Virus record (IMG/VR): IMGVR_UViG_3300028653_000014
Location: 19,070-83,069 of that record
Source: a virus
Length of the DNA: 64,000 nt
Direction: 5' to 3' (one strand)
Part shown: positions 17,583 through 54,916 of the stretch, piece after piece
How positions within the stretch are numbered: the first letter of the stretch is position 1
How the letters are laid out: every line of letters begins with the position of its first letter
Notes under the pieces: generated by a model
What the model saw: only the letters and a program-made list of their open reading frames with translations
Databases searched by the model: none
What the model was told of the DNA's origin: nothing
Made by a program: the position numbers and the translations under genes

Positions 17583-20500
17583 CTAACGCGTCGCCCCGGT
17601 GAGATTCGTCGACGTCTTCTTCTGCCTGCCAGGGTTACGGCCGAGCGCGTTCGGGTTCACCTTCACGGCCTTCTCCGCCGCAAGGGTGTCGGCGATCGTC
17701 TTCGTGTTAGTCGCGATCTTCTTCTGCAACGCCGTGTTCGCCTTCGCGATTGTCAACTGCTGCTGCGCGACGTCGCGTTGCTGCTGCGCCACCAGCAACG
17801 CCGGTTGCACGATTGTGGCCTCCTGGCCGCTCCCGGTCGCGCCGCCCGTGAACCCGTTCAACGCCTTCGCCTGATCCTGGATGCCCTTCAGTTGCGCGTT
17901 GAAACCGTCCGCGAACGACGTGCCGAGCAGCTTCCCAGCCGTCTTGTAGCTGACCCCGTCCCTCTTCAGCAACGCCAGCAACTGATCGCGCCCCTTCGTG
18001 ACCGACAGCCGCCCGGTGTTGATCCCGTCCGTGATGTCGTTGATCGTCCGGGTCGCGGTGATCTTCCGCTGGTTCACCTGATCCTGGGCAACCGACAGGG
18101 ACGCCTGCTGGTACTGCTGCAGGAACGACTCGATGTACGGCTTCGTCGCCGTCGACGCCTTCGCGGCCAGCGACTGCAGTTCCGCAACCGCCTTGTTCGG
18201 GTCGGTCGACAACTGCTTGCCGCCCGGCAGCAGCGCGCTCCGGCGCAACTGGTCGAGCGAGAGCTTGTTTTGGGCCAACGTCAGCTTGTTCTGGAGGTTC
18301 GTCAGCGGCTGGTCGAGCACCGACCCGACACTCGACGCCAACGATTGCCCGATCGATGCGAGGTTCTGCTTCGCCTGGTTGATCGAGTTCGTCAGGTCGA
18401 TGGCGTTCTGCTGGATCGTCTGGCCGAGTTTCTCGTTCAGCAACCCGATCCTCTGCTGGGCCTCAGAGATCGCCTGCGCGTTCGTGTTAGAGGCCGTGGT
18501 CGCCGCCGCGATACCGGACTTCAGTGCCGCCTGGATCTGATCCTGGGCGCCCTGGATGGCCGCGTTGATCGGGTCGAGGAACAACGTCGCGAACCTCTGC
18601 CCGGCCGTCTGCGCTGAGGCAGCAGACAGCGGGTCGGGTAGCGCGTTGAAGAGAGCCGCCACACCGTTCCCGAGGCCCTTCCCCTCAGCGACCGCAGCCG
18701 TCAGCGACTGCGTGAAGTTGTCGCCTGTAGCCGTCCCTGCGTTCGTCGCGTACTGCGGCAACTCGTTCAGCCTCGTGACGATGTCACTGAGGCTCGTGGT
18801 GGCACTTCGGTTGTCGAGGATGAAGTTGATTTCCTTCTGGGTCGGTATCCGCCCGACCGTCAGGGTGAACTGAGAGAGCAGATCGAGGTTCTGACGTATC
18901 GTGGGCGTCAGGTTCTTCTGTGCGGCGGCGTCAGCCTGAATGCCCTGAGCGAAGTCGAGCGCCGCCTTCTGACGTGCTGCAGCAAAGTTTGACGCCGACT
19001 GGCCGGGGGTGGCCCCGACACCAGCACGCGTCCCACCGATCGGAACGTTGGCGTTCGTCGCCTGCGTCTTCAACGCCGCCACGAGGTCCTGTGCGGTCTT
19101 CTTCGCGGCAGTCTGACCTGTGGAGATTTTCGTCAGGTCGCTCTGGTACTGCGCCCGTGCGGCCTTTTGCTGCTGCAACGCCGCGTCAAGGTCGAGCACC
19201 GCCTGCTTGTAGGCAAGCGTTCCCTTCTTCCCGGCCGAGAGTTCGCTGTTCGCCTTCGCCTGCTGCACCGCGAGGTTCGCCTGCGCCAGAGAAAGTTTGT
19301 CCTGCGGGGTCGCCGCGAGTGCGGTGTTCAGATCGGTGATGCTCGATACGAAGTTTCGGTTTGCAGCCGTCGCGTCCGACTCCCGCGTTGCGAGATAGAC
19401 AATCCCGGCGGTAAGCCCGGCGATACCGACAACCGCAAGACCGACCGGGCCGGTCAGAGCGGCGATCCCACCCGCCAGCAGGCCGACGCCCTCCGCCCCG
19501 CCCGCCTCTACCGCCGATGCCGCTATCGCCTCGTTCGCAGCCACGACGGCAGCCGCGTTCGTCTCCACCGCCGCCGTGGTTGAGAACAGCCCTTCTACGA
19601 GCAGACTCAGGTTGCCGATGATCGTCCCGATCTTCCAGCCGAACCAGACGGCAGCCATGATCTTCACGGCGTTCCCCAATCCGCCCACGGCGCTGATGAC
19701 GGCCTGCAGGGGCGGCAGCACCGTCGACAGCACGTCCTTGACGCCGCCGATGATCTGCTTCGCGTCCGAGAGGGCCGAGTTCACGTCGCGCTGCAACTTC
19801 CCGGACTGCGTCATCTTCGTCAGCCATGCCCCGAGTTCCGACGTCAGACTCGACAGGGCCGGGAGCAGTGCGGCACCGATCACGTCCTTCGCGTTCGAGA
19901 ACGCCGCCGACAGTTGCCGCTGCTCGTTCGCGTAGTCGTGCGCGTGCGCGGCGGCCTGCTGCTGGAACTGGCCGAGATTCTCCGTCGCGAGCGCGTAGAT
20001 CGCCTCAGCCTTCTGCGCCGGGTTCAACGCCTGCGTGATCGAATCCGTCAGGCCCAGTTTGAACGCCGCGATCTTCTCGGACGTCGTGTCGACCGAGATG
20101 CCGAGTTGCTTCAACCCTCGGGTGTTGCCTGCCGCGGCCAGCACGATGCTCTGCAGCACCTGTGAAGGGTCGACGCCCTTGATCGCGGACAGTGACCCGG
20201 CGAGAGACTCGAACCCCTGAGTCATCCGGGCCGCCAACGACGGCGCGATGTCGAGGTTCTTGAAGAGGATGCCGAACCGCGCCGACGTGGCGTCCGCCGT
20301 TTGGGCGCTGATCCCGAGCGCCTGAGCGCCCTTCTCACCAAACGCCGTCAGCGCGTCACCCGACTTGCCGAACTCCTCCTGGATCACCTCCTGCGACTTC
20401 TGCAGGTTCGCGGCGCTGCCGACGACGTCCTTCGCGAACTTGACCGCGAACGCCGCCCCGATCCCGACGCCCAGCACCTTCGAAAGGCTGAACACCTTCG

Positions 20501-21763: not shown

Positions 21764-23188
21764 TCAAGTGGTCCTCGCCGCCTCCAAAGCCGGAAGTAGA
21801 AACGGCCTCGGAGCCGTGCGTTTATTCCCCACCCAGCCGACACCGCCCCCGCGCTTCGGATAAGCATGGGCCGTATTTCCATGCCCGAGTTCGACGTACG
21901 AGTTGCTCACCACCACGCCGTTCGCCAAAAACGAGTGAACGCCGTTTACGGCGAGGTCGTACAGGCTGGCGTGCCATGTCCCCTTTGACTTCGCCGCCTC
22001 GTCTCCGTAACGCCATGTCCTCAGAATGGTGGCCGGGACGACGCGGAATCTTTCAGGATCGACATATGACTTCGGGCCTGGGTTGCACACGACATAGCGA
22101 ACGCCCGCTAGAGGCTCTGGATCAATCGGCTCGAACGGCGGACGTGCCTTGTCGTAGAAATGAATGTGCGTGATCTCCACGCCGGGACAGAGGCGCAGGA
22201 GTTCTCGATCGCGCTCGATGTCTTTCTTCTGATCACGGTGCCAGTAGCCGCCGTCGGCCTCGATGATCTCGCGGCGCTCTGCATCGAAGAAGTCAACGAT
22301 GTAGTCACCAATCGGCACCTGGCGCTCGTAGTTCACTCCACGCTCATCAAGCCATGCGGCGACCTCGTACTCAGGTCGCGTCTCATGTCCCAACGCGGAA
22401 AGCTGTCTGTTCAGCCTGGCGCCCTGCTGACTTCGCTTCGCCGCCTCGGAAATCTTCTGGCGCGTAGCGTCAGAGCGGATGGCCCCAAGATGCGGATTCG
22501 CCCCGGCCGCCCATGCCTCATCCCGGCAGGCGGTGGAGCAATACCGCTTTCCTTGATTACGATGTGCGTCGAGGCAGTGATCGCACGTCTTTAGCAGTGC
22601 TGTTCCCTTGTTGTGAGCGAGTTTGCGCGTGGAATACAGCATGTCTCCATCGCGCAGGTCACCCGCGAAGATCCACTGATTACGCTCATCGCGCAGAACG
22701 AGAACGCGGTGATCGAGCGTCAGAGTGACTTGGTGAGTTCGATCTGATCTCCACGGCACTTCGATATCGATGAGTTCTGGCTTCTCGACTGCCGGAAAAG
22801 ACCACTTCCCGACGATCGGCTGGAAGTCTCCAGCCTGAGTGAGGACCTCTTCGCCTATCTCGATCTGACCGATAGTCCGCGGACCAGTTCTAGTCGTGAT
22901 CACAGTGTGCGCGTCGAAGACGCAGGCGTAACTGACGTTCGAGCCGATGTCGACATACGGGCCTTGCGAGTCGGCGCCTACCCGGTAGCCGATCGACGAA
23001 CGGAGACGGCCGGTGATGACGTTCGGCCCCGGCCGCCCCGTCGCGTTCGTCTTCGCGGCAGCCTCAACCCGGACGGCGCGCTTCACCAAGTCGACCACGA
23101 TCGCTTCGTTGAGCACCCGTGTGAACGCGGCAGCGTCGATCTGGAACTGGCCGAGCGTCGCCTGAATCTGGACATCGAGGACGCTCAC
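21764..23188 (-). CDS. HK97 gp10-like tail/connector protein interrupted by an intein
   Basis: 474-aa precursor, GTG at 23188 (GTGA overlap). The extein is 133 aa: residues 1-88 (VLNEAIVVDLVKRAVRVEAAAKTNATGRPG..., SSIGYRVG, IGSNVSYA) joined to SYVELGHG...RPFLLPALEAA, the classic gp10 family end, which helps join tail to head. The intein interrupts the conserved YA-YVELG strand between residues 88 and 430. The spliced product is needed for tail completion, so loss of splicing should be lethal to virion assembly. Confidence 0.85.
   Translation of the reverse strand: MSVLDVQIQATLGQFQIDAAAFTRVLNEAIVVDLVKRAVRVEAAAKTNATGRPGPNVITGRLRSSIGYRVGADSQGPYVDIGSNVSYACVFDAHTVITTRTGPRTIGQIEIGEEVLTQAGDFQPIVGKWSFPAVEKPELIDIEVPWRSDRTHQVTLTLDHRVLVLRDERNQWIFAGDLRDGDMLYSTRKLAHNKGTALLKTCDHCLDAHRNQGKRYCSTACRDEAWAAGANPHLGAIRSDATRQKISEAAKRSQQGARLNRQLSALGHETRPEYEVAAWLDERGVNYERQVPIGDYIVDFFDAERREIIEADGGYWHRDQKKDIERDRELLRLCPGVEITHIHFYDKARPPFEPIDPEPLAGVRYVVCNPGPKSYVDPERFRVVPATILRTWRYGDEAAKSKGTWHASLYDLAVNGVHSFLANGVVVSNSYVELGHGNTAHAYPKRGGGVGWVGNKRTAPRPFLLPALEAARTT
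21902..22924 (-). mobile_element. Intein in the gp10-like gene, with zinc ribbon and Vsr/DUF559-like nuclease
   Basis: 341-residue intein. It starts at Cys1 (codon 22924-22922, CVFDAHTVITT) and ends in VVVSN, followed by Ser+1. Splicing blocks: A CVFDAHTVI, B-type TLTLDHRVLVL, C-terminal DLAVNGVHSFLANGVVVSN. The central insert has a zinc ribbon (CDHCLDAHRNQGKRYCSTAC) and a PD-(D/E)XK nuclease of the Vsr/DUF559 type: YEVAAWLDERGVNYERQVPI, YIVDFFDAE, IIEADGGYWH with Asp/Glu in the expected order. Most inteins carry LAGLIDADG or HNH enzymes; this nuclease type is uncommon there. Confidence 0.88.
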
Positions 23189-24191: not shown

Positions 24192-25151
24192 ATTGCGGCT
24201 ATCGCCGCTGAGACTAGATACCTCGGCCCGAACCTATCTGGCTTCTGCATGTGCGGATGCGGTCAGAAGACCAATCTCGCCCGGTACAACGATCACGAGA
24301 AGGGGTATGTGCTCGGTCAGCCGATGCGCTATCGCCTCGGCCACGCCTTGGCGCGCACGCCGGTTATGCCGCTCGTGGCTCCTAATCCGTCCGGCTATTG
24401 CGAATGCGGATGCGGCGCAAGCACGCCCGCGGCGAAGAGAACCAATCGTCAGTTCGGACATCTAAAGGGACACCCCGTCCGCTTCATAGCAGGTCATCAA
24501 CTCAGGAATCTCTGGGAGCCGTCCCAAAATCTCACTGCTCTCTGTGCTTGCGGGTGCGGTGGTCGGACGCGTTCAGTGAAATGGGGGAACGCCTCCAAAG
24601 GGCTTTCCCGCGGTCAGGCTCAGAAGTTCATCCGCGGCCATCAACAGCGGAAACCAGTCGCAATCCAGGAAGACGAATATCTAGTCGCCGATCTCGGCTT
24701 CGACACTCCATGTTGGGTCTATCTCGGCCTGCTCGACCCGAAGGGCTACGGCATTCGGCACCGAACCGGAACGGGCACCGCACGTGCTCACCGTCAGTCG
24801 TACACGGAGTTCGTTGGTCCTATCCCATCAGGGAAGTCAATCCATCATCGTTGTCGTCACCCCGCGTGCATCAACCCAACGCATCTCGAAGCCATGCCAG
24901 TCTCCGAGAACACCGAACTCACACGAGGAACTCGACCGCCCCGCGCTGTCCGTCTACGTGTCTTTGAACGAGACGGTCACCGTTGCCGACGATGCGGTGT
25001 GACGAAGGAACTCAGCATCGACCACATCGTGCCGCTCTGTCGCGATGGCACCCACGACGAGGCGAATCTTCAGACTCTCTGCCGCTCATGCAACAGCAAA
25101 AAGGGCCGCTACTACTTCCTCGACGAACGCCTCGCTACAGCAACCCTCTAA
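24192..25151 (+). CDS. Homing-type nuclease with zinc knuckles and two HNH modules
   Basis: About 319 aa. The frame begins after a TAG with ATT at 24192; the first ATG (24249) would cut the leading LGPNLSGFCMCGCG knuckle, so an ATT start or an unseen one is likely. Three CxCGCG-type knuckles (CGCGQKT, CECGCGA, CACGCGG) are followed by HHRCRHPACINPTHLEAM, an HNH_3-like core. A second nuclease core follows: CRRCGVTKELSIDHIVPLCRDGTHDEANLQTLCRSCNSKKG. It lies on the strand opposite its host module between two structural genes, as free-standing homing endonucleases do. Confidence 0.85.
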   Translation: MAAIAAETRYLGPNLSGFCMCGCGQKTNLARYNDHEKGYVLGQPMRYRLGHALARTPVMPLVAPNPSGYCECGCGASTPAAKRTNRQFGHLKGHPVRFIAGHQLRNLWEPSQNLTALCACGCGGRTRSVKWGNASKGLSRGQAQKFIRGHQQRKPVAIQEDEYLVADLGFDTPCWVYLGLLDPKGYGIRHRTGTGTARAHRQSYTEFVGPIPSGKSIHHRCRHPACINPTHLEAMPVSENTELTRGTRPPRAVRLRVFERDGHRCRRCGVTKELSIDHIVPLCRDGTHDEANLQTLCRSCNSKKGRYYFLDERLATATL

Positions 25152-26404: not shown

Positions 26405-26812
26405 CTACCGGCCGAGATGCAGGAGTCTGTGATGCCGGATGCAAAGCCAGCGAACGTCGAGCGGCTTCGAGTAATCATCGTGATGCGCGTGAATCCTTCC
26501 AGAGCAGTCGTCGGACTCTCGCTCACATGGCTGAGGAACAAGATCACCGCGCGCAACGGCATTGAGCACGCGACTTCTAGCAACGATCTTTTCCGGCTCC
26601 CGCTTCTTACGTTCCAGCTTCTTCTGCGCCCACTCGTCGGAGTGACGGTGATAGGACGCTCGTGCTGCCGCCCGGTGCTGATCTCGATGCCCGACGACCC
26701 ACTTGTGGTGACGTGCAGCATTCGCTTCCCGACACTTTTCACACCTGCATTTGTGTCGTTCGTAGAAGTTGCGCGTACCGTGTCGTGGGTCGTCGGGGTC
26801 AAAATCGGTCAC
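26405..26812 (-). CDS. Small HNH homing-type endonuclease
   Basis: 135 aa. N-terminus has CRCEKCREANAARHHKW, a zinc knuckle plus basic helix repeated in homing endonucleases; the C-terminus CERESDDCSGRIHAHHDDYSKPLDVRWLCIRHHRLLH is a compact HNH core with H-H at the beta-hairpin and final His. Inserted in sense orientation between two structural genes, with a terminator behind it. Base composition is slightly less GC-rich than its neighbours, consistent with horizontal arrival. Confidence 0.82.
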   Translation of the reverse strand: MTDFDPDDPRHGTRNFYERHKCRCEKCREANAARHHKWVVGHRDQHRAAARASYHRHSDEWAQKKLERKKREPEKIVARSRVLNAVARGDLVPQPCERESDDCSGRIHAHHDDYSKPLDVRWLCIRHHRLLHLGR

Positions 26813-28640: not shown

Positions 28641-29417
28641 GTGACCAGCAGCGAGCTTTGCACCTGCACCCTTTGCACGGCAGGCGAGCCTGTTCCGTAC
28701 GGCACCTGCCACTGCGCGTGCGGCGAGAAAACGAACCCGGCGCCGTTCACGAACCCCGCCAGGGACTACGTGAAGGGCGAGCCGGTGAAGTACGTCAAGG
28801 GCCACGGCTCCCGCTCGAAGGACTGGAAGAAGCGTTGGAACAGCGAGGGACCAAACCCATCCGGCATCTGCCAGTACAACGGCTGCGATCAGCCGACCCT
28901 GCTCTCCGCGAACACCGTGTGGCATCTCGGGATCATCCGAGGAGAGCCGCTCCGTATGTGCCCTAAACACAAGCACCCCGGACGGAAGAAGGCCACTCTC
29001 ACCTTCGACATTGAGGATCGTGGATACATCAGCGACGAAGGGGTGGCTAGCGACTGCCACATCTTCAATCGTGACGCCCGCGACGGGAAGAACGGCGTAT
29101 ACGGAGTCATCGGCGGAAAGTCGCGGCTCGCCCATATCGTCGCATGGGAAGCGCTCAACGGCGCTCTGCCGCGCGGTCTCACCCTCGACCATCTCTGCGA
29201 GATCAAACTCTGCGTCAACCCCGATCATCTCCGCCTCTCCACTAGAGCGGTACACGCCAAGCGGCACGCTGACCTGCGGATTGACAAGAACGTGATCTCG
29301 GCTATCCGCGACGCCCTGCGTACAAGTGATCTCACTCAGAAGCAGATCGCCGCGAAGTTCGGCGTCAGCCTCAGCTACGTGGGCAGAGTCCGCTCCGCCA
29401 TGAAGCGCGAGTCCTAG
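28641..29417 (+). CDS. HNH homing-type endonuclease with C-terminal HTH
   Basis: 258 aa, GTG at 28641 with GGGAGA upstream. Zinc-knuckle modules CTCTLCTAGE, CHCACGEKT and CQYNGCDQP...CPKHKHPG, then a nuclease core (LAHIVAWEALNGALPRG, LDHLCEIKLCVNPDHLRL: HNH_3-like), and a C-terminal helix-turn-helix (TQKQIAAKFGVSLSYVGRV). Opposite strand to the surrounding capsid operon and bounded by its own terminator. Probably homes into the capsid-tail boundary. Confidence 0.86.
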   Translation: MTSSELCTCTLCTAGEPVPYGTCHCACGEKTNPAPFTNPARDYVKGEPVKYVKGHGSRSKDWKKRWNSEGPNPSGICQYNGCDQPTLLSANTVWHLGIIRGEPLRMCPKHKHPGRKKATLTFDIEDRGYISDEGVASDCHIFNRDARDGKNGVYGVIGGKSRLAHIVAWEALNGALPRGLTLDHLCEIKLCVNPDHLRLSTRAVHAKRHADLRIDKNVISAIRDALRTSDLTQKQIAAKFGVSLSYVGRVRSAMKRES

Positions 29418-35189: not shown

Positions 35190-35374
35190 TCGGCGGCATG
35201 GTCGGGCGCACGTATCTGCTCCCCGACGGCCGTCTCGGCCGTGTCGTCGCGCGCTGGTCGGGGAAGGGATGCCCGCGGAACGTGCTCGTCGCGTTCGAGG
35301 ACGGCAGCATGACGTGTCGGCCCTTCCGGGGCCTTCGTCGCCTCCCTGCGCCGTATACTCCGCCCCGTGATTGA
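35186..35374 (+). CDS. Small KOW-like beta protein
   Basis: 62 aa, ATGA overlap at 35186. MVGRTYLLPDGRLGRVVARW and VLVAFEDGSMTCRPFRGLRRL resemble a single SH3/KOW barrel. Ends 8 nt into the lysozyme gene. Confidence 0.62.
   Translation: MIGGMVGRTYLLPDGRLGRVVARWSGKGCPRNVLVAFEDGSMTCRPFRGLRRLPAPYTPPRD
35354..35366 (+). promoter_or_regulatory. Promoter with TATACT at the lysozyme start
   Basis: TATACT (35354-35359) sits exactly 7 nt before the GTG at 35367 and inside the end of the upstream gene, implying a leaderless internal transcript for the lysozyme. No clear -35. Confidence 0.5.
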
Positions 35375-36870
35375 CCAGACGCAGCCGGGCGCCACGTGGG
35401 GGCTTGGCGATGTGTTTCTGCAGCCGCGGCAGGTGGCCGATCTCGCGTATCGACACGGTGTCACGAACGCCGCCGACTTGGCGGTCATCATCGCGATCTG
35501 TTACGCCGAGTCTCAGGCAGGGGTGAACGCGTGGCACGACAACCTAGCGGCGGACGGCGTGACGGTTCTGAGCCGCGACGTCGGTCTTTTCCAGATCAAC
35601 ATCCCGGCCAGTGCGATCGGCGGACCTCAGGAGGAGGCTCTGTACGACCCGGAGAAGAACGCGGCAGCGATGTTCGCGCTCTACAGCCACCGCCGCTTCG
35701 AGCCGTGGGCGTCGTTCAACTGCGTCCCGCTTGATGCCCAGATTTTGACAAGGCGCGGCTGGCTTGACTCCACCGACGTACGCGCTGGGTTCGATCAGAC
35801 ACTGGGCTATGACACGGCGCTCGAACAGCTTAGATGGACGTCGATCCTTCACGTCGGACAGCTAGAAAAGCAGGTCACGATTGAGATAGATGGCCGTCAG
35901 TGGAAGGCGCGAGTAACGCCGGGGCATCGCTGGTCCCTAGTCCGCAACTGGTATACGCGACGGACGAGGACACCGCGAGAGGAACTTGCCCCAACGAATG
36001 AGATTCGTCCACATGATCGTATTCGGCTAGCGGCAGTCGCTGTCGGAGGCGATCTCCCCATCTCCCCGCAAGAAGCAGCGGTGATTGCGTGGCTGCTTGG
36101 AGACGGGAGTATGCGCACACGTCAGAGCGACGGAAGACGCCGGGCGTTTATGGTCGAGAGCGACGAGGCAGACCTCGTTGGCAAGGCGTGCATCTTGCAG
36201 TCGAAGCCCTCAGGGGTCGCCGCATTACAAGCACTCCTAGAACCCGTCCCTCACCGCGCCACACAAACTGCGCACATCGCCGAGGGGCAAAACTATCGGC
36301 GCTCGCGATTCACGCTTGCCCCAGACTATGTACGGGACGTCCTTGCTCGTGCCGAGATCGACCAGCGTGGCCTGATGGGATTCGTGTTCGGACTAAGCAT
36401 GGAGGCGAGACAGGCGTTTGTTGAGGCATTCGTGATGGCCGAGGGTGGTCATGAACCCACAGGGTCGTATTTCACCCAGAACGAGGGGGCCACTACTTGA
36501 TGCTGCGATTGTCGCGACGTACATGAACGGCAAGCGACCGAGTGTCCACGTCAACGCGCCACATCGGTCAGACATATCGCGCAGCGTCCACCTCTGCGAA
36601 CCGTATGCAGCCGGTTCGCGCCTCCAGTTCGGAGTCGAGCAAGTCGAAGATGTCTGGTGTCCTACGACTGAACTTGGCACGTGGACGATGCGCCAGAACG
36701 GACGCGTAATGCTGACGGGGAACTCCGCCGTGTATCTGAACGACGGCTACACGGGGAAGGCCGCGCTCGGGATGTGCAACTTCGCGGTCGAACGGTTCAA
36801 CACGGCCGGGGCCAAGCTGCCGTTGCCGCTGTTCACGCTGCCCGATCTGCGCAAGAAGCTCCCGCACTAA
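35367..36870 (+). CDS. Lysozyme-like transglycosylase interrupted by a frameshifted intein
   Basis: Needs one base fewer to read through (500 aa); as sequenced the frame stops at 36500. Extein (166 aa): Glu48 in IAICYAESQAGV and DVGLFQINIPA at 72-82 are lysozyme-fold hallmarks. The C-terminal extein begins at SAVYLNDGYTGKAALGMC. The N-extein ends FEPWASFN, so the intein splits the conserved FxPW..N-S region of the fold. Would cleave peptidoglycan at entry or lysis. The G run at 36485-36489 has five G; with four the frame is continuous. Confidence 0.82.
35721..36723 (+). mobile_element. LAGLIDADG-type intein in the lysozyme gene, frameshifted
   Basis: Starts at Cys1 (TGC 35721, CVPLDAQILTRRGWL), ends RVMLTGN (N codon 36721-36723) before Ser+1. 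Block B VTPGHRWSL. Endonuclease motifs IAWLLGDGS and FVEAFVMAEGGH match the paired LAGLIDADG helices. A single extra G in GGGGG at 36485-36489 shifts the frame within YFTQNEG-PLLDAAIVATYMNGKRPSV. About 334 residues after correction. The C-terminal part (VWCPTTELGTWTMRQNGRVM) is close to the portal intein's. Confidence 0.85.
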
Positions 36871-48734: not shown

Positions 48735-51686
48735 TCATTGCCCGAACGAGACTGAGCATCTGCAGTTAGCTACCTGCGAGACGTCACCATCTGGATCACC
48801 GGGGTAGTTCAGCGCGAACCCGTCAACGTCGAACGCCTCCTCAAGAGCGCGCTGCTGACCGTCGAGGCCGTCCACGAGTTCGTGTCGCGGATACAAAGCT
48901 CCCGGAGCCGTCATCCAAGTCTTGGGCATCGTCGAGCCGGTCGCCTGCCCGACGAGTTGCGCCGACGTGACCGCGGCGCCGTTCGCCAAACCGGTCATCT
49001 CCGTATTTCCCGTGTAGACGCCGTTCGCGATAAAGTACCCGTACGGCGTGCAGAGGTTGAAGACATAGCCAGCGAACGAGACCAGTCGACTCGCGATCAC
49101 GCGGTCCAACTGTATGTCTCCGGTCTCAGCGCGCGGGTGGTCGGGTCGGCTGTCGGCGTGGATAAGAGCGTCGTGCTGCGATGGGTCGACGCAGCCGGAA
49201 TACCTCGTCGCACTCTTCAGGAGGCTCGTGCTTTGTTCTTCGAGAACGGCGGGAACGTCCATAACCGCCGAGACGACATTAACGCTGCCGATGTGATCGA
49301 ACGCTTCAACTCGGGACGGGCGGTGAAAAAGATCGCCGGGGATCTGGACACGAGCGGAATTGTCATCCGACGAATCCTGCTCGAAAACGGGATCACCCCT
49401 CGAAACCCCGCAGAAGCAGGCGCTCTGGTCAATCGCCAGCAAGCCTCCGCACTCCGCGCAGAAGGGCGAATGTCCCAGTACGTCGGCTGGGGCGAAGACA
49501 TCATCGCCGAGATGCTCTCCGAGAGGGGCGAACATCCCGAGCGACAATTCCCCGTCGGGCCACGCAATCTCGACCTCGCCCTCATGCCCGTCGCCGTGGA
49601 AGTCTGGCTCTCCTCCGCTTCGCCTCTCAATGATCCCTACTGTCGCGACCGTCTCGAATATCTCAGCGATCGTGGCTGGTGGATTTGCTACATCTTCATC
49701 GCGCGCCGCACTCGGGTTTTGGTTCCCGAAGTAGCAGACGAGATCGTCTCCTTCGTTGAGTTCGCCCGCAGTTCTCCAGCCGCCGCGCGTGAGCATCGGG
49801 TGATTCGGGGTTGCGGTGAACTCGCGGCCAGATTCCATGACGATGACCGCCATGTCTCCCTCGTACCACCGTCTCGTGACTGCCCGCACCACAGCACCAT
49901 CAACAAGCGTCTCCGCGGGTAGACAGCGCGCGATCAGGGTGGAGCGGGTGACTGACGCCTGCTTCATGCCGGACCGGATCGCCTCGGCCGTGTCGGGGAT
50001 CGACAGTCCGGCCTGGTACGACTGGCCGATGATGTCCATCACGTCGGCCTGGGTCGTCTCGGTGATGTTCGTGACCTGGCTGGCGGACTTCGCGAGCACC
50101 CCGCTGATGAGCGGGTTGTGGACGTCCCAGTTCAGCCCGGCCGCTTCGAGGACAGGGGTCATGGCGGACTTGATGAACGCCTGCCGGATCGGCTCGGTGC
50201 GCGCCTTGATCTCAGCGATCAGCGCGGTCACGTCGAGGACTTCGGCCGGGGCGGGCGCTGTCCACTGCGGCGGGGTCGGCGTCGCGTCCTGATCGCCCGC
50301 GGCGGTCAACTGGCGAACCCCGGTCAGCGGGAAGTCTGCGACCACCTGGTTGCCCTGCACGATCTTCAGCGAGTCGAAGTGGAGTGGCGCGCCGAGTGTG
50401 GCCGTGTCGGGCGGCGCAGTCGAGTCATCCCGGTAGGCGATCGTCCCGTGTGGCTGGTAGCCGTGGTTGCGCGCGTAGTCGGCGTCCGCGACTAGCACCG
50501 CCGTACAGACCGCCTGGCGCAGCTCGACAAGCCCTGGCACGTCGGGAAGAACGATCGCTGGTGTCCCGTTGCCCTGGTCTTGGAACGCGCCGACACCGCC
50601 GACTGTCCCTTCGAGCGGCGGGTGAGACGCTGCGACGCGGGTGAGTGCGGTACGTACGGCGTCGACGGTCTCCTCGTCGGTGTCTCCGAGGTACGCGAGC
50701 GTCACGTGGATGTCCTCGGGCTTCTCGCCTCCCGTCTCAGCGATTGCGGCAGCCTCAGCCGGGCGCGGAAAGAGTGCGATCATGGTTGAGGCGCTCGTGA
50801 TGTCCGCAGCGGCCGTCAGCGCAAGTGACGCGAGCAGCGCGCGGCCTTCCTCCAACCCGATCGCACCGAGCGCGTCCCGGTCGGCACGGCGGGCAAGCGA
50901 GGCGGTGAGATGGTTCGTGACGCGGGACTGGAACGTGCGGGCCGCCTGCTCACCGGCCTGCTCTAGGATCGGCTGGATCGCGGCGGCGAGCTTCGGCTCC
51001 AACGCGTCGACGCGCTTCTGCGCCTCCGCCAGAACCTTGTTGTGGAGCAGAGGCGGGACGACCTTCGCGGGCGGCGCGGACTGCGGGGCGGCGTCGGCGG
51101 TCACGGCGTGGTCGGATTCTAGCCTCACCCATTCGTCACACACGTTCGACGGCGACACCGGCGCCCCGAACATCAGGCAGACGGCGTTCTCGTAGAACTT
51201 GCAGGTCGCGCAGGCCACGTCGGGGTCGTCCGATGCCCGGTAGTGGACGCGGGCCGGGATGCCGTCGTCCACAGGCTTGTCCCCATCTGTGGATTCGGCG
51301 AACGCCCGCTCGACGTGAGCCGCGACAATGGCAGGAAAGACGGCCTGGCGCGCATCTTCCGCAGTGGCGGGTTTGAGGATGTCGCTCAATCGAACCTCGT
51401 CGAACGCGGAGTCACGGACGACGCGAAACTCAAGTCCGCCCGGATTCGGGTTGGCGGCGGTAACGCGGGCGTTACTCGCAACCGTCCTGGCAGGGGAGAC
51501 CGAGGCTGGAACGCCGCCGTCCTCCCAAGCGTTGCAGAGCCGATCTCCTTGCACGGTCACGTCGAACCGTCCGCACTGGTCGACCGTCCCAGCGCCGTAG
51601 AACGAGCACGTCGCGCACGAGACCGCATGGGTCGGCGCAGGCCGGTACTGCTCCGACGCGGGGATCGTCCCGCGCCCGTCGTTCAC
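48735..51686 (-). CDS. MuF-type head morphogenesis protein fused to a 2H phosphoesterase, with intein
   Basis: 983-aa precursor from GTG at 51686 (GTGA overlap). Extein 676 aa: two Cys modules (CATCSFYGAGTVDQCGRF...C and CATCKFYENAVCLMFGAP...C); a 2H phosphoesterase domain ~300-455 with HVTLAYLG (~327-334) and HGTIAYRD (~413-420); then a helical MuF-like domain (RSTLIAR|TEMTGLANGAAVTS, TWMTAPGALYPRHELVDGLDGQ) ending VANCRCSVSFGQ. MuF/SPP1 gp7-like proteins act between portal and capsid. The intein splits the conserved IAR-TE motif. Confidence 0.87.
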   Translation of the reverse strand: MNDGRGTIPASEQYRPAPTHAVSCATCSFYGAGTVDQCGRFDVTVQGDRLCNAWEDGGVPASVSPARTVASNARVTAANPNPGGLEFRVVRDSAFDEVRLSDILKPATAEDARQAVFPAIVAAHVERAFAESTDGDKPVDDGIPARVHYRASDDPDVACATCKFYENAVCLMFGAPVSPSNVCDEWVRLESDHAVTADAAPQSAPPAKVVPPLLHNKVLAEAQKRVDALEPKLAAAIQPILEQAGEQAARTFQSRVTNHLTASLARRADRDALGAIGLEEGRALLASLALTAAADITSASTMIALFPRPAEAAAIAETGGEKPEDIHVTLAYLGDTDEETVDAVRTALTRVAASHPPLEGTVGGVGAFQDQGNGTPAIVLPDVPGLVELRQAVCTAVLVADADYARNHGYQPHGTIAYRDDSTAPPDTATLGAPLHFDSLKIVQGNQVVADFPLTGVRQLTAAGDQDATPTPPQWTAPAPAEVLDVTALIAEIKARTEPIRQAFIKSAMTPVLEAAGLNWDVHNPLISGVLAKSASQVTNITETTQADVMDIIGQSYQAGLSIPDTAEAIRSGMKQASVTRSTLIARCLPAETLVDGAVVRAVTRRWYEGDMAVIVMESGREFTATPNHPMLTRGGWRTAGELNEGDDLVCYFGNQNPSAARDEDVANPPATIAEIFETVATVGIIERRSGGEPDFHGDGHEGEVEIAWPDGELSLGMFAPLGEHLGDDVFAPADVLGHSPFCAECGGLLAIDQSACFCGVSRGDPVFEQDSSDDNSARVQIPGDLFHRPSRVEAFDHIGSVNVVSAVMDVPAVLEEQSTSLLKSATRYSGCVDPSQHDALIHADSRPDHPRAETGDIQLDRVIASRLVSFAGYVFNLCTPYGYFIANGVYTGNTEMTGLANGAAVTSAQLVGQATGSTMPKTWMTAPGALYPRHELVDGLDGQQRALEEAFDVDGFALNYPGDPDGDVSQVANCRCSVSFGQ
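48882..49922 (+). CDS. Antisense HTH plus Vsr/DUF559-like homing nuclease inside the MuF intein
   Basis: Reading frame of up to 346 aa opposite the MuF gene. The protein-like core is residues ~74-300 (49101-49781): two HTH repeats (YVSGLSARVVGSAVGVDKSV, FNSGRAVKKIAGDLDTSGIV) followed by a Vsr/DUF559-type nuclease (EDIIAEMLSERGEHPERQFP, NLDLALMPVAVEVWLS, RLEYLSDRGWWICYIFIA). The core fits exactly between the splicing blocks on the other strand. Start is uncertain: no ATG, GTG or TTG occurs between 48885 and the HTH, so the ATG at 48882 is the only conventional one. Expression or remnant status cannot be told from sequence. Confidence 0.6.
   Translation: MSRIQSSRSRHPSLGHRRAGRLPDELRRRDRGAVRQTGHLRISRVDAVRDKVPVRRAEVEDIASERDQSTRDHAVQLYVSGLSARVVGSAVGVDKSVVLRWVDAAGIPRRTLQEARALFFENGGNVHNRRDDINAADVIERFNSGRAVKKIAGDLDTSGIVIRRILLENGITPRNPAEAGALVNRQQASALRAEGRMSQYVGWGEDIIAEMLSERGEHPERQFPVGPRNLDLALMPVAVEVWLSSASPLNDPYCRDRLEYLSDRGWWICYIFIARRTRVLVPEVADEIVSFVEFARSSPAAAREHRVIRGCGELAARFHDDDRHVSLVPPSRDCPHHSTINKRLRG
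49005..49925 (-). mobile_element. Intein in the MuF-type gene, without in-frame nuclease
   Basis: 307 residues from Cys1 (codon 49925-49923, CLPAETLVDGAVV) to VYTGN (N codon 49007-49005), followed by Thr+1. Block B FTATPNHPMLTRGGWRT. Residues ~63-275 encode no recognisable endonuclease in frame: sequence there is Gly/Asp/Glu-rich and corresponds to the reverse complement of the plus-strand nuclease. C-terminal block VFNLCTPYGYFIANGVYTGN. Confidence 0.87.
51460..51475. promoter_or_regulatory. 16-bp perfect palindrome, operator/stoperator candidate 12 (intragenic)
   Basis: GTAACGCGGGCGTTAC inside the 5' part of the MuF gene, encoding S-N-A-R-V-T. Confidence 0.65.
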
Positions 51687-51868
51687 AGTTCGCCCTTCCA
51701 CGACTCGATCACCTCTCGGAGCGCCCGTGCCTTCTCCGCCACCGCGTCCGTGATGAGCGCCTCGTCGGCGTACTCGATCTCGACGAGCAGGTCGAGTGCG
51801 GCGGCGGTGAACTCCGTCAGCACGAGCGACGGGCGCAGCCTCACGTACAGCACCGCTTCGCCCGGCAC
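51683..51868 (-). CDS. Small acidic helical protein
   Basis: 61 aa from GTG at 51868. AVLYVRLRPSLVLTEFTAAALDLLVEIEYADEALI; a two-helix protein between portal and MuF genes, coupled by GTGA to the MuF gene. Unknown function, possibly a scaffold or chaperone. Confidence 0.62.
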   Translation of the reverse strand: MPGEAVLYVRLRPSLVLTEFTAAALDLLVEIEYADEALITDAVAEKARALREVIESWKGEL

Positions 51869-51871
51869 GGG

Positions 51872-54800
51872 CTACTTGCCCGCCGTCAGCAGTCCCTGAA
51901 CGAACTGCGGGAACGAGTCCGGCATCAGTTGCGGCTTCAAGTCGTACAGCGTGCGGGCCGCGTGCTTCTCGATCGTGTCCGCAATCGACGTCTGCACCCC
52001 GTCGTCCGTGATCCCGAACACCCTGAGCGCGTCGAGGATCAACGTGCGGGCGCCGCCGACGAGGGCGGCCTCTGACGGGACGTTGGGGAGGTTCCGCACG
52101 CGCGCACGTCCCAGAGTGGCTGCAACGTCGCGTGCCGGGACGCCCTCTATCAGCGCGAGGGTTTCATCGTCGCGACGTGCGAGCGTCCGTAGGCGGCTTC
52201 CTGCGGCCTCACGAGCACGTAGGAGCGCCAACTGGGCGGCGCCCTGAACCATCACCGTCTGTGCCCGCTGCGCGGACGCCACGACCTCGTTGTCGACCCC
52301 GGCCGGGTCGTCCTTCGGCACAGGCGGCGTCTTCTCGACGTCGGCCGCCGTGACTCCGCCATCGCCTGTAGTGCCACCGTCTGGACCGGGCGAGACGAGC
52401 GTGTCCGAGTCCGGCTCAAGTTCGGAGTTCTGCCTGAGCGACGGGACGCCGTAGACAGCCAGCGACGGGTCGCGCAGCTTGACGCCGAGCCAACGGTTCC
52501 GCTCCTCCTCGGTCGGCGCGTCGTTGTCGCCGAAGTTCGCGACACCGCGCAGCGCCTCGTCACCGATGACGCCACGGTCGTGGAGGTCCTTCGCGTCCTT
52601 CGTGCGGTCCGGATGGTTGATGACCGCGGTCGCGTCGTACGCGATCACGTATTTCCCCCAGTCCGCGATGTTCTGATCCATCAGGTACGGGGACAGGTAG
52701 GCGTCCGTCAAGTCCTGCACGAGCGAATCCGCGACAGGCTGCAGGTGGTACTTCCACGTGATCTCGTCGATGTTCCAGGCGCTGTTGCCGGTGAAGAACG
52801 TCCGCCCGTCCCGCCGCGCAAGCCATGTGCGGTTCACCGTGGTGGGGCACCAGACGACTCCCGAGTAACTGACTATCTCGTCCGTGGCGCCGTCGTCGTT
52901 GAACTGCCGTCCGGCTTCCTGCGCCGCCTTGACAGGCCGTACCGCCAGAGAGCGCAGCGCCCGCACGACAACACCGCCATCGTGTGACGGTTGCCGGGAG
53001 GCGGCGCGGCCCGAGAGGATCACCGCAAGCTCGAATGCGTCGAGCCGGGCCGGGTCCTTCTGCCAGACGTCGAGTAGGCCGCCGCGGTAATGATGGCCGT
53101 CCCCCTGGCAGGAGACGTCGATGAAGAGTTCTAGTTGCGCCCTGCTCAGCGCCGAGATGAACTCCGGGCTGACGCATTTCGACGGCGCGATGTCGAGCAG
53201 GGGCTTCGACGCCTGCTGGTTCAGGTGGAAGACGGTGATGGGGACGCCGTGACTTCCATCGTTCTGCTGAATGGCCTCACGCCATGCCGGGACACCGAGC
53301 ATCCTCGTCTTGCCGACCGATGGTCCGTAGAGACGGGTCAGGCAGCCGCGGATGCGCTCCACCCTGTCGGCGTTCCGGGTGTGGGACTGAGCGATCGACA
53401 GCGTCTTGCCTCGCGCGTGTCCTTCCGTCCAGAACCAGGCGGCAAGCTCTACTAGATCGTCCGGAACGACGGCAAGATTCTCGTCGCCCGCGAACGCACC
53501 CGTGATGATCGAATCGGCAGCGGTCAGGCGCTTCGTTGTCGTCCACTCCCGCGATACGTACGGAACCTTGTCCTTGTGCCGAAGCCGTGTAACCGGCCAG
53601 CGATGGTTCAGCGTCGTGAGCGAACTGTGCGTGCGACTCTCCAGCCGACGCATCGGCTCGTTCGTCACGCCAGCGCGATAGATGTCCAGAACGGGCTGCC
53701 ACTCGGCGAGGCCGGTCTCGTGATTGAGAGTGCGTACGACGTCGCCCGTTTCGAGGTCGTCGTGCGTCACCCATCCTCTGTCCTTCGTCAGAATCTCCGT
53801 CGATTCGTCCGAGCACCAGTGGTTGACGTCGCCCAATCCGAGAAGGACTTCGGGCGGCATGTCGAGCGAGACGGCGAGGCGGCGGATGCACTCGTCGCGC
53901 AGCCCGGTCTCCGGGTACACCTGGGTCGGGTCGATGATCTGGAGATGGAAGACCAAGTCGGAGAGTTTCATCCCTTCAGGGACGCGCACACGGGCGACGA
54001 GCGGTACGACGGCCCCGGCGGTGCCTTCGTTGATGATCGGCTTCGTCATCGCCTCCGTCAGGTCGGCGAGGAACGGGTCCTCCTGCGGGTCCTCGTCCGG
54101 GGCGGCCTCTGACGGGGTGGTGGTGATCCGGTCGTCGATGAACAGGACGCCGGAGCCTGCGAGGCGTGACCGGGCGCGGGCACGGACGGCCTGCGTGAGG
54201 AGCACGTACTCCTCCAGGATGTCCAGGCACGCCATGACGGACGAGTCGGCCAGCGACGACCAGCGCGGATGCCGTTTCCAGATCCGGTAGGCGACCGCCG
54301 TGTCTGCGAGCGGCTCGAAGTCCTTGTCGGGGGCCGGGTAGAACTGGTTCGCGGGAAGCTGCGGCGCCTTGAAGCGGGTGTAGAGGCCCTCGATCAGCCG
54401 CACCTCGTCGGTGGAGAGCATCTCCCACTGTTCCAGCTTCGTCCGCTGGTTGATCGTGACGAGCAGATACGCCTCGCCGACGAGGAACATCAGGCGGCCG
54501 TAGTTCGCCAACAGCCCGGTGCGCCCGGTGCCGCCCGGGTCTTTGATCCGGGCGAGCGCGTCGATGACGACCTCGTTCTTCGTACGGACGACCTCGCCCG
54601 TCTCCTCGTCGATCTCCCCGGCGAACAACTCCAACTGGGCGAGTGCGCGGCTGTAGAACTGGGCGGCGTACTTGAGCGGCCCGACGATATCGTAGTAGCC
54701 CATCGCGCGTACCTGCCACGCCTGGATCAGTCGGCGCAGATAGGTCGCGTCGCCGTGCTGCACCAACTCCCCTGCCGCGGTGAGTGAGCCGGGCTGCTCT

Positions 54801-54916
54801 GCCCGGAGCCGATCCATTTCGGCCCGGACGGCGTTGTGGCGTGCGCTGACCCGATCAGGGGACGCGTCCTTATAGAGAACCGGGGTTGTGTCGCGGCGGC
54901 GACTGAACAGCGCCAT
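51872..54916 (-). CDS. Portal protein interrupted by an intein
   Basis: 1014-aa precursor; extein 670 aa. Residues 1-367: RLIQAWQVRAMGYYDIVGPLKYAAQFYSRAL, ANYGRLMFLVGEAYLLVTINQR, and the portal crown-like SLDMPPEVLLGLGDVNHW immediately before the intein. The C-extein starts SAWNIDEITWKYHLQPVADSLVQDLTDAYL, the conserved portal helix, followed by a linker and a helical C-terminus. Forms the dodecameric DNA gate at the capsid vertex. The intein sits in the GDVNHW-SAW junction, a highly conserved site. Confidence 0.9.
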   Translation of the reverse strand: MALFSRRRDTTPVLYKDASPDRVSARHNAVRAEMDRLRAEQPGSLTAAGELVQHGDATYLRRLIQAWQVRAMGYYDIVGPLKYAAQFYSRALAQLELFAGEIDEETGEVVRTKNEVVIDALARIKDPGGTGRTGLLANYGRLMFLVGEAYLLVTINQRTKLEQWEMLSTDEVRLIEGLYTRFKAPQLPANQFYPAPDKDFEPLADTAVAYRIWKRHPRWSSLADSSVMACLDILEEYVLLTQAVRARARSRLAGSGVLFIDDRITTTPSEAAPDEDPQEDPFLADLTEAMTKPIINEGTAGAVVPLVARVRVPEGMKLSDLVFHLQIIDPTQVYPETGLRDECIRRLAVSLDMPPEVLLGLGDVNHWCSDESTEILTKDRGWVTHDDLETGDVVRTLNHETGLAEWQPVLDIYRAGVTNEPMRRLESRTHSSLTTLNHRWPVTRLRHKDKVPYVSREWTTTKRLTAADSIITGAFAGDENLAVVPDDLVELAAWFWTEGHARGKTLSIAQSHTRNADRVERIRGCLTRLYGPSVGKTRMLGVPAWREAIQQNDGSHGVPITVFHLNQQASKPLLDIAPSKCVSPEFISALSRAQLELFIDVSCQGDGHHYRGGLLDVWQKDPARLDAFELAVILSGRAASRQPSHDGGVVVRALRSLAVRPVKAAQEAGRQFNDDGATDEIVSYSGVVWCPTTVNRTWLARRDGRTFFTGNSAWNIDEITWKYHLQPVADSLVQDLTDAYLSPYLMDQNIADWGKYVIAYDATAVINHPDRTKDAKDLHDRGVIGDEALRGVANFGDNDAPTEEERNRWLGVKLRDPSLAVYGVPSLRQNSELEPDSDTLVSPGPDGGTTGDGGVTAADVEKTPPVPKDDPAGVDNEVVASAQRAQTVMVQGAAQLALLRAREAAGSRLRTLARRDDETLALIEGVPARDVAATLGRARVRNLPNVPSEAALVGGARTLILDALRVFGITDDGVQTSIADTIEKHAARTLYDLKPQLMPDSFPQFVQGLLTAGK
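52784..53815 (-). mobile_element. LAGLIDADG-like intein in the portal gene
   Basis: 344 residues, from Cys1 (codon 53815-53813, CSDESTEILTKDRGWV) to FFTGN (N codon 52786-52784), then Ser+1. Block B LTTLNHRWPV. Paired LAGLIDADG-like helices LVELAAWFWTEGH and LELFIDVSCQGDGHH, the first with Glu in place of the usual Asp, so nuclease activity is uncertain. The end (VVWCPTTVNRTWLARRDGRTFF) is clearly related to the lysozyme intein's. Confidence 0.87.

Follow-up and report, generated by a model that had tools for sequence, protein, structure and literature searches.

Intact inteins have usually been described with LAGLIDADG nucleases and less often with HNH nucleases. A gene for an HK97-gp10-like neck protein, found in the 64,000-nucleotide stretch of viral DNA analysed here (the window; positions 19,070 to 83,069 of IMG/VR record IMGVR_UViG_3300028653_000014), raises the question of whether an intact intein can carry a nuclease of another type as its own in-frame domain, and whether such an arrangement extends beyond this phage. 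The initial annotation had placed an intein at 21902-22924, and the boundaries computed here agree to the base. The ORF at 21764-23188 (-) is one open 474-aa frame holding both the gp10 extein and the intein, which spans residues 89-429 of the precursor, begins with CVFDAHTVITT and ends with SFLANGVVVSN before the extein Ser. As the single frame is continuous, a split intein or fractured gene was ruled out. The gene is composed as follows.

22925..23188 (-): N-extein, residues 1-88, HK97-gp10-like neck/tail-completion protein (PF04883, phrog_5)
21902..22924 (-): intein, 341 aa, C1...N341/S+1 (computed boundaries; predicted Hint fold)
22625..22924 (-): N-terminal Hint half, intein residues 1-100, with block B T69..H72 (C1, T69 and H72 invariant in 53 relatives)
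22520..22591 (-): putative zinc ribbon CxxC..CxxxC, intein C114, C117, C129 and C133 (Cys conservation 52/53)
22421..22471 (-): NUMOD3-like helical stretch, DATRQKISEAAKRSQQG (motif by eye; predicted helix)
22154..22378 (-): DUF559/EDxHD nuclease core, residues 183-257, with E185, D211, E222, D224, H229 and D235 (PF04480, PDB profile matches)
21902..22102 (-): C-terminal Hint part, intein residues 275-341, VHSFLANGVVVSN (TIGR01443)
21764..21901 (-): C-extein (first residue Ser, +1) and stop (joined 133-aa extein aligned with Chenonceau Neck1)

The assignment of the putative HK97-gp10/neck extein is supported by a match to phrog_5 ('tail completion or Neck1'; E 3e-6) and by the joined 133-aa extein, whose alignment to Neck1 of Flavonifractor phage Chenonceau, an uninterrupted protein, continues past the splice point (NVSYA^SYVELG vs NVEYAPYVELG); the Pfam HK97-gp10 model PF04883 lies just below its cut-off (E 5e-4, 21.3 bits vs 21.4). 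Within the insert, NCBIfam TIGR01443 (intein_Cterm) scores 23.0 bits, above the cut-off of 15.6, and Pfam gives weak Intein_splicing and weak Hint_2 matches on the precursor. The residues of a class 1 intein are all present, namely C1, T69, H72, N341 and the extein Ser +1, the four intein residues being invariant in 53 relatives. The AlphaFold model of the whole intein has a pLDDT of 86, and its Hint part resembles solved inteins with a VIA Z of ~19 over ~130 residues.

Conservation was scored on a 53-row alignment (A5) of gp10 and other inteins, 51 of which bear the nuclease. All four cysteines, Cys114/117/129/133, occur in 52 of the 53 rows, the exception being a nuclease-less mini-intein. 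In the window protein, no family is matched with confidence by either the ribbon or the NUMOD3-like stretch: Pfam zf-MYND covers the intein cysteines weakly, and Pfam NUMOD3 was reported in 3/53 related inteins and not in the window protein; the ribbon presumably binds zinc. The gp10 inteins (16/16) have a block-F His330 and a Ser340 preceding the terminal Asn, while nearly all non-gp10 inteins are reversed, position 330 being Glu or Asn and position 340 His. Despite Ser rather than His before the terminal Asn, the gp10 inteins likely splice, with the F-block His330 kept.

The initial annotation had proposed a zinc ribbon and, from the motifs YIVDFFDAE and IIEADGGYWH, a PD-(D/E)XK-type nuclease. 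Both motifs are found inside the gp10 intein, and DUF559 (PF04480, Pfam) scores 40.9 bits (E 2e-10), about double its cut-off of 20.6. The initial annotation had further held that LAGLIDADG and HNH domains are absent, and a Pfam search of the window gp10-intein protein indeed matched neither family. Compared with PDB, the 53-member profile reaches 3HRL at E 5e-12, I-Bth0305I (3R3P) at E 4e-9 and Vsr (1CW0) at E 1e-3. The isolated module was modelled with a pLDDT of 85 and an alpha-beta-beta-beta-alpha-beta core, a PD-(D/E)XK core like that of Vsr and I-Bth0305I rather than a different fold. It compares with Vsr 1CW0 at Z 8.5 (89 aligned, 3.3 A), with I-Bth0305I 3R3P at VIA Z 8.3 (74 aligned, 2.6 A, 27% id) and with the DUF559-type 3HRL at Z 7.7; a structural Z near 8 is in itself modestly above background, and the main weight lies on the sequence profile. 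Foldseek pairs the module with 3R3P at E 1e-3 and prob 1.00. In the fold search with the module, some mitochondrial ribosome chains place as high as the nucleases or higher; these may be RAP-type domains of Vsr-like fold. The EDxHD motif (E185, D211, H229, D235) lies within the region profile-aligned to 3R3P, whose sequence has A at the catalytic D and H positions, residues that we infer to be mutations introduced for crystallisation. Among the nuclease-bearing inteins, D211, E222 and H229 are present in 51/51; E185 occurs in 48, D224 in 50 and R238 in 49 of the alignment (53 rows, 51 with nuclease), and D235, the last EDxHD residue, in 15/15 nuclease-bearing gp10 inteins, the remaining inteins nearly all having D or E there. 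Family model, PDB profile and predicted fold thus support a predicted DUF559/EDxHD (Vsr-like) nuclease of the PD-(D/E)XK type.

This in-frame design appears not to be peculiar to the window phage. Relatives were opened up by an IMG/VR scan with a degenerate pattern for ExDGxYWH and reading of the ORFs; the first five were intact inteins in MuF-type/head genes with the order Hint, zinc ribbon, helical linker, DUF559, Hint. An IMG/VR scan with an alignment of four such inteins gave 156 relatives. The 80 best were retained and ~40 inspected individually, nearly all of the latter being open, in-frame inteins. The gp10 orthologues were collected with another pattern and by scanning with an alignment of the gp10 type. 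Besides the window copy, 14 other gp10 inteins carry the module at the identical gp10 position, and the module is found in 36 further inteins, mostly in MuF-type head genes. Every gp10 member examined shares one site, typically YA^[S/C]xxExG, in otherwise strongly diverged exteins, and the orthologue inteins are 38-46% identical to that of the window. Whether the tree is built from Hint or from nuclease sequences, the gp10 inteins group in a single, fully supported clade, consistent with Hint and nuclease having descended together in the gp10 lineage. In 103/105 pairs, identity is higher between the inteins than between the exteins, a rough indicator of transfer in which local and global alignment identities are mixed. 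Since the same architecture is found in many distant phages, chance is excluded, and the dozens of relatives in other phages, comprising one fixed-site gp10 family and a larger MuF set, show the in-frame zinc ribbon and Vsr/DUF559-type nuclease to be widespread as a mobile-intein design rather than an isolated case.

Among the relatives found, none is close to the window intein (best ~46%), and mobility of the window copy itself is therefore not seen. No relative was returned when IMG/VR and genome_contigs were scanned with the window protein as a single sequence, and the tblastn matches among phage and plasmid records were only weak and partial; no isolates with the gp10 intein were found, the genome_contigs scan with the gp10 alignment yielding three weak partial matches.

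Considering the boundaries, predicted fold, catalytic residues, fixed site in diverged gp10 genes, nuclease-less forms and intein-free homologue established by comparison and modelling, the element is very probably a mobile (homing) intein with an EDxHD endonuclease. The gp10 precursor would be translated as a single chain, from which the Hint domain would cut out the intein, with Cys1 as nucleophile, T69..H72 of block B, cyclisation of Asn341 and Ser+1 as acceptor, leaving the exteins ligated to YA^SYVELG, a conserved neck-protein motif. The released intein would double as a homing endonuclease: zinc ribbon and downstream helices are expected on the DNA around the empty gp10 site, which the EDxHD core (E185, D211, H229, D235) would cleave with metal ions, and the element could spread through repair templated by the intein-bearing copy.

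Other uses of the nuclease may be considered. Cutting of intein-free rival phage genomes (marker exclusion) is a general trait of phage homing endonucleases, and the target here would be a conserved structural gene, so the nuclease might serve chiefly in phage competition, with homing unnecessary. Such a role is compatible with homing and hard to tell apart from it; yet homing is favoured by an insertion site that stays constant while the gp10 genes have diverged, and competition as the chief function appears unlikely. Somewhat less likely still, the intein may splice while its nuclease is inactive or otherwise employed, e.g., as a structural brace of the Hint fold. Reduced forms persist at the same sites, including, at the gp10 site, a mini-intein of 169 aa without ribbon or nuclease (L243) and 193-aa MuF inteins that keep the ribbon and have lost the nuclease (L175, L176), and a further MuF intein has a truncated nuclease (L218). 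As nuclease-less mini-inteins persist at these sites, the nuclease would be dispensable for retention of the insert. Yet decayed nucleases would drift, while all catalytic residues are intact in the window copy and in nearly all relatives. Capture of a Vsr mismatch-repair enzyme by the intein is highly improbable: the fold is the same and Vsr is among the best structural matches, but NCBIfam vsr (TIGR00632) scores 12.3 bits, far below its cut-off of 97.85, and DUF559 and I-Bth0305I match more strongly, and the reading as a repair enzyme was rejected on the TIGR00632 score. The homing intein remains the preferred reading of the gp10 insert.

A second intein of the window lies in a MuF/head-morphogenesis gene and is overlapped by an ORF on the opposite strand.

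49005..49925 (-): MuF intein, 307 aa (computed boundaries; Intein_splicing E 8e-7, below cut-off)
48882..49922 (+): antisense ORF over the MuF intein, 346 aa, HTH-like repeats and a distant DUF559-like nuclease (homologues, hhalign)

The initial annotation had regarded the two inteins as unrelated, with nucleases of the same broad type in opposite orientations. The former part stands: the gp10 and MuF inteins have only short splicing motifs in common, their relationship being otherwise unrecognisable in sequence, and the gp10 nuclease is read in frame on the (-) strand, whereas the MuF nuclease is an antisense ORF on (+). The common nuclease type holds as well, with the refinement that the kinship is distant: hhalign relates the antisense nuclease to the in-frame family (A5) over the E..D..E core (Prob 89, E 2e-6), but zinc ribbon and DGxYWH motif are lacking, and HTH-like repeats are present instead. 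The antisense nuclease may thus be viewed as a distant cousin of the in-frame nuclease rather than the same module. Its conserved part begins at about residue 71, and the true start is probably within the intein.

Homologues of the antisense ORF lie antisense to MuF/head-morphogenesis genes in Gordonia, Klebsiella, Cronobacter and Salmonella phages, and the register is the same in 8/8 homologues checked, antisense position 1 facing sense position 3. In three Gordonia pairs, substitutions inside the ORF at sense positions 1/2/3 number 42/11/25, 49/7/27 and 54/12/35 of 221 each, compared with 10/4/73, 11/6/52 and 6/2/69 of ~750 in the exteins of the same pairs. The excess lies at sense position 1, which is the wobble position of the antisense frame, and marks the antisense frame as the more strongly constrained of the two in these three Gordonia phage pairs. 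In Vibrio phage 1.266.O, a Hint gene near the major capsid gene (NVP1266O_04; L007) has an antisense DUF559-like ORF in its intein region. A single MuF gene with two inteins (L134 8509-12048 (-), on a contig shared with L164) has an antisense five-zinc-ribbon DUF559 ORF in the upstream intein and an in-frame DUF559 nuclease in the downstream one. Given the Vibrio phage 1.266.O and L134 cases, both coding directions recur. It is fairly likely that phage head/neck inteins repeatedly gain EDxHD/DUF559 nucleases, in frame or on the opposite strand, with the complement staying open as a linker.

Further features of the window were observed in passing. The MuF-type protein (48735-51701 (-)) has a fused 2'-5' RNA ligase/LigT-type phosphoesterase domain at residues 331-431 (E 5e-16), and a similar domain is apparent by eye in the MuF-type gene of L218; on the MuF-type protein it is possibly a virion-borne anti-defence enzyme. 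A portal-like gene at 51872-54916 (-), for whose protein Pfam found no family, holds another intein with a LAGLIDADG-like look, starting as CSDESTEILTKDRGW after DVNHW and ending RRDGRTFFTGN before SAWNIDE. An apparent intein in an SLT_3 lysozyme-like gene at 35367-36870 (+) starts as CVPLDAQILTRRGWL after FN; its end, VMLTGN before SAVYLNDG, sits in another frame, so the gene seems to be interrupted by a frameshift. Free-standing HNH/HNH-like endonuclease genes are located amid the structural genes at 24249-25151 (+), 28641-29417 (+) and 26405-26812 (-), two of them on the opposite strand.

Vsr-like endonucleases have reportedly been described in 'fractured genes' with split inteins (Dassa et al. 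2009). Such genes are said to share with the present case a Vsr-like homing endonuclease linked to phage inteins, but the nuclease there is reportedly a free-standing gene between the split-intein halves, whereas the gp10 intein is intact and the nuclease is its domain. Part of the present material, the antisense form above all, may be covered by Gosselin et al. 2025 (bioRxiv, 'Actinobacteriophage Inteins ... Non-Canonical Architecture'). Group I introns are a known source of EDxHD/Vsr-like homing enzymes (PMC3943268), and phage group II introns of a related group (PMC12350094). I-Bth0305I resembles the gp10 nuclease in catalytic fold and motif and is also tethered to extra DNA-binding modules (PMC3943268), but it is encoded in a phage group I intron and has other DNA-binding domains, while the gp10 nuclease is in frame within an intein. 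Classical homing inteins such as PI-SceI and the mycobacteriophage TerL inteins likewise combine Hint with a nested in-frame homing endonuclease (PMC5050341), yet theirs is LAGLIDADG, of which none was detected in the gp10 intein. For the MuF antisense ORF, the ShiLan element, an out-of-frame HNH nuclease hidden in a phage methylase (PMC11855218), is a relevant precedent; it uses an alternate frame of the same strand, without Hint and with an HNH nuclease, whereas the MuF case uses the opposite strand. A DUF559/EDxHD gene is named among intein-containing genes in PMC9403480, without details. In a limited search of the literature on inteins together with DUF559, EDxHD or Vsr, no paper was found on EDxHD nucleases lying in frame within intact inteins, which, as far as searched, represent a variant not described so far.

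The in-frame EDxHD inteins thus form a populous class, in which same-site gp10 alleles range from full-length to nuclease-less, along with intein-free homologues. This allele series provides natural material on the entry of nucleases into inteins and their exit, and the in-frame EDxHD inteins would be new site-specific enzymes with predictable targets. In the antisense counterpart, both strands code across a presumably spliced element, and selection on each strand can be separated.
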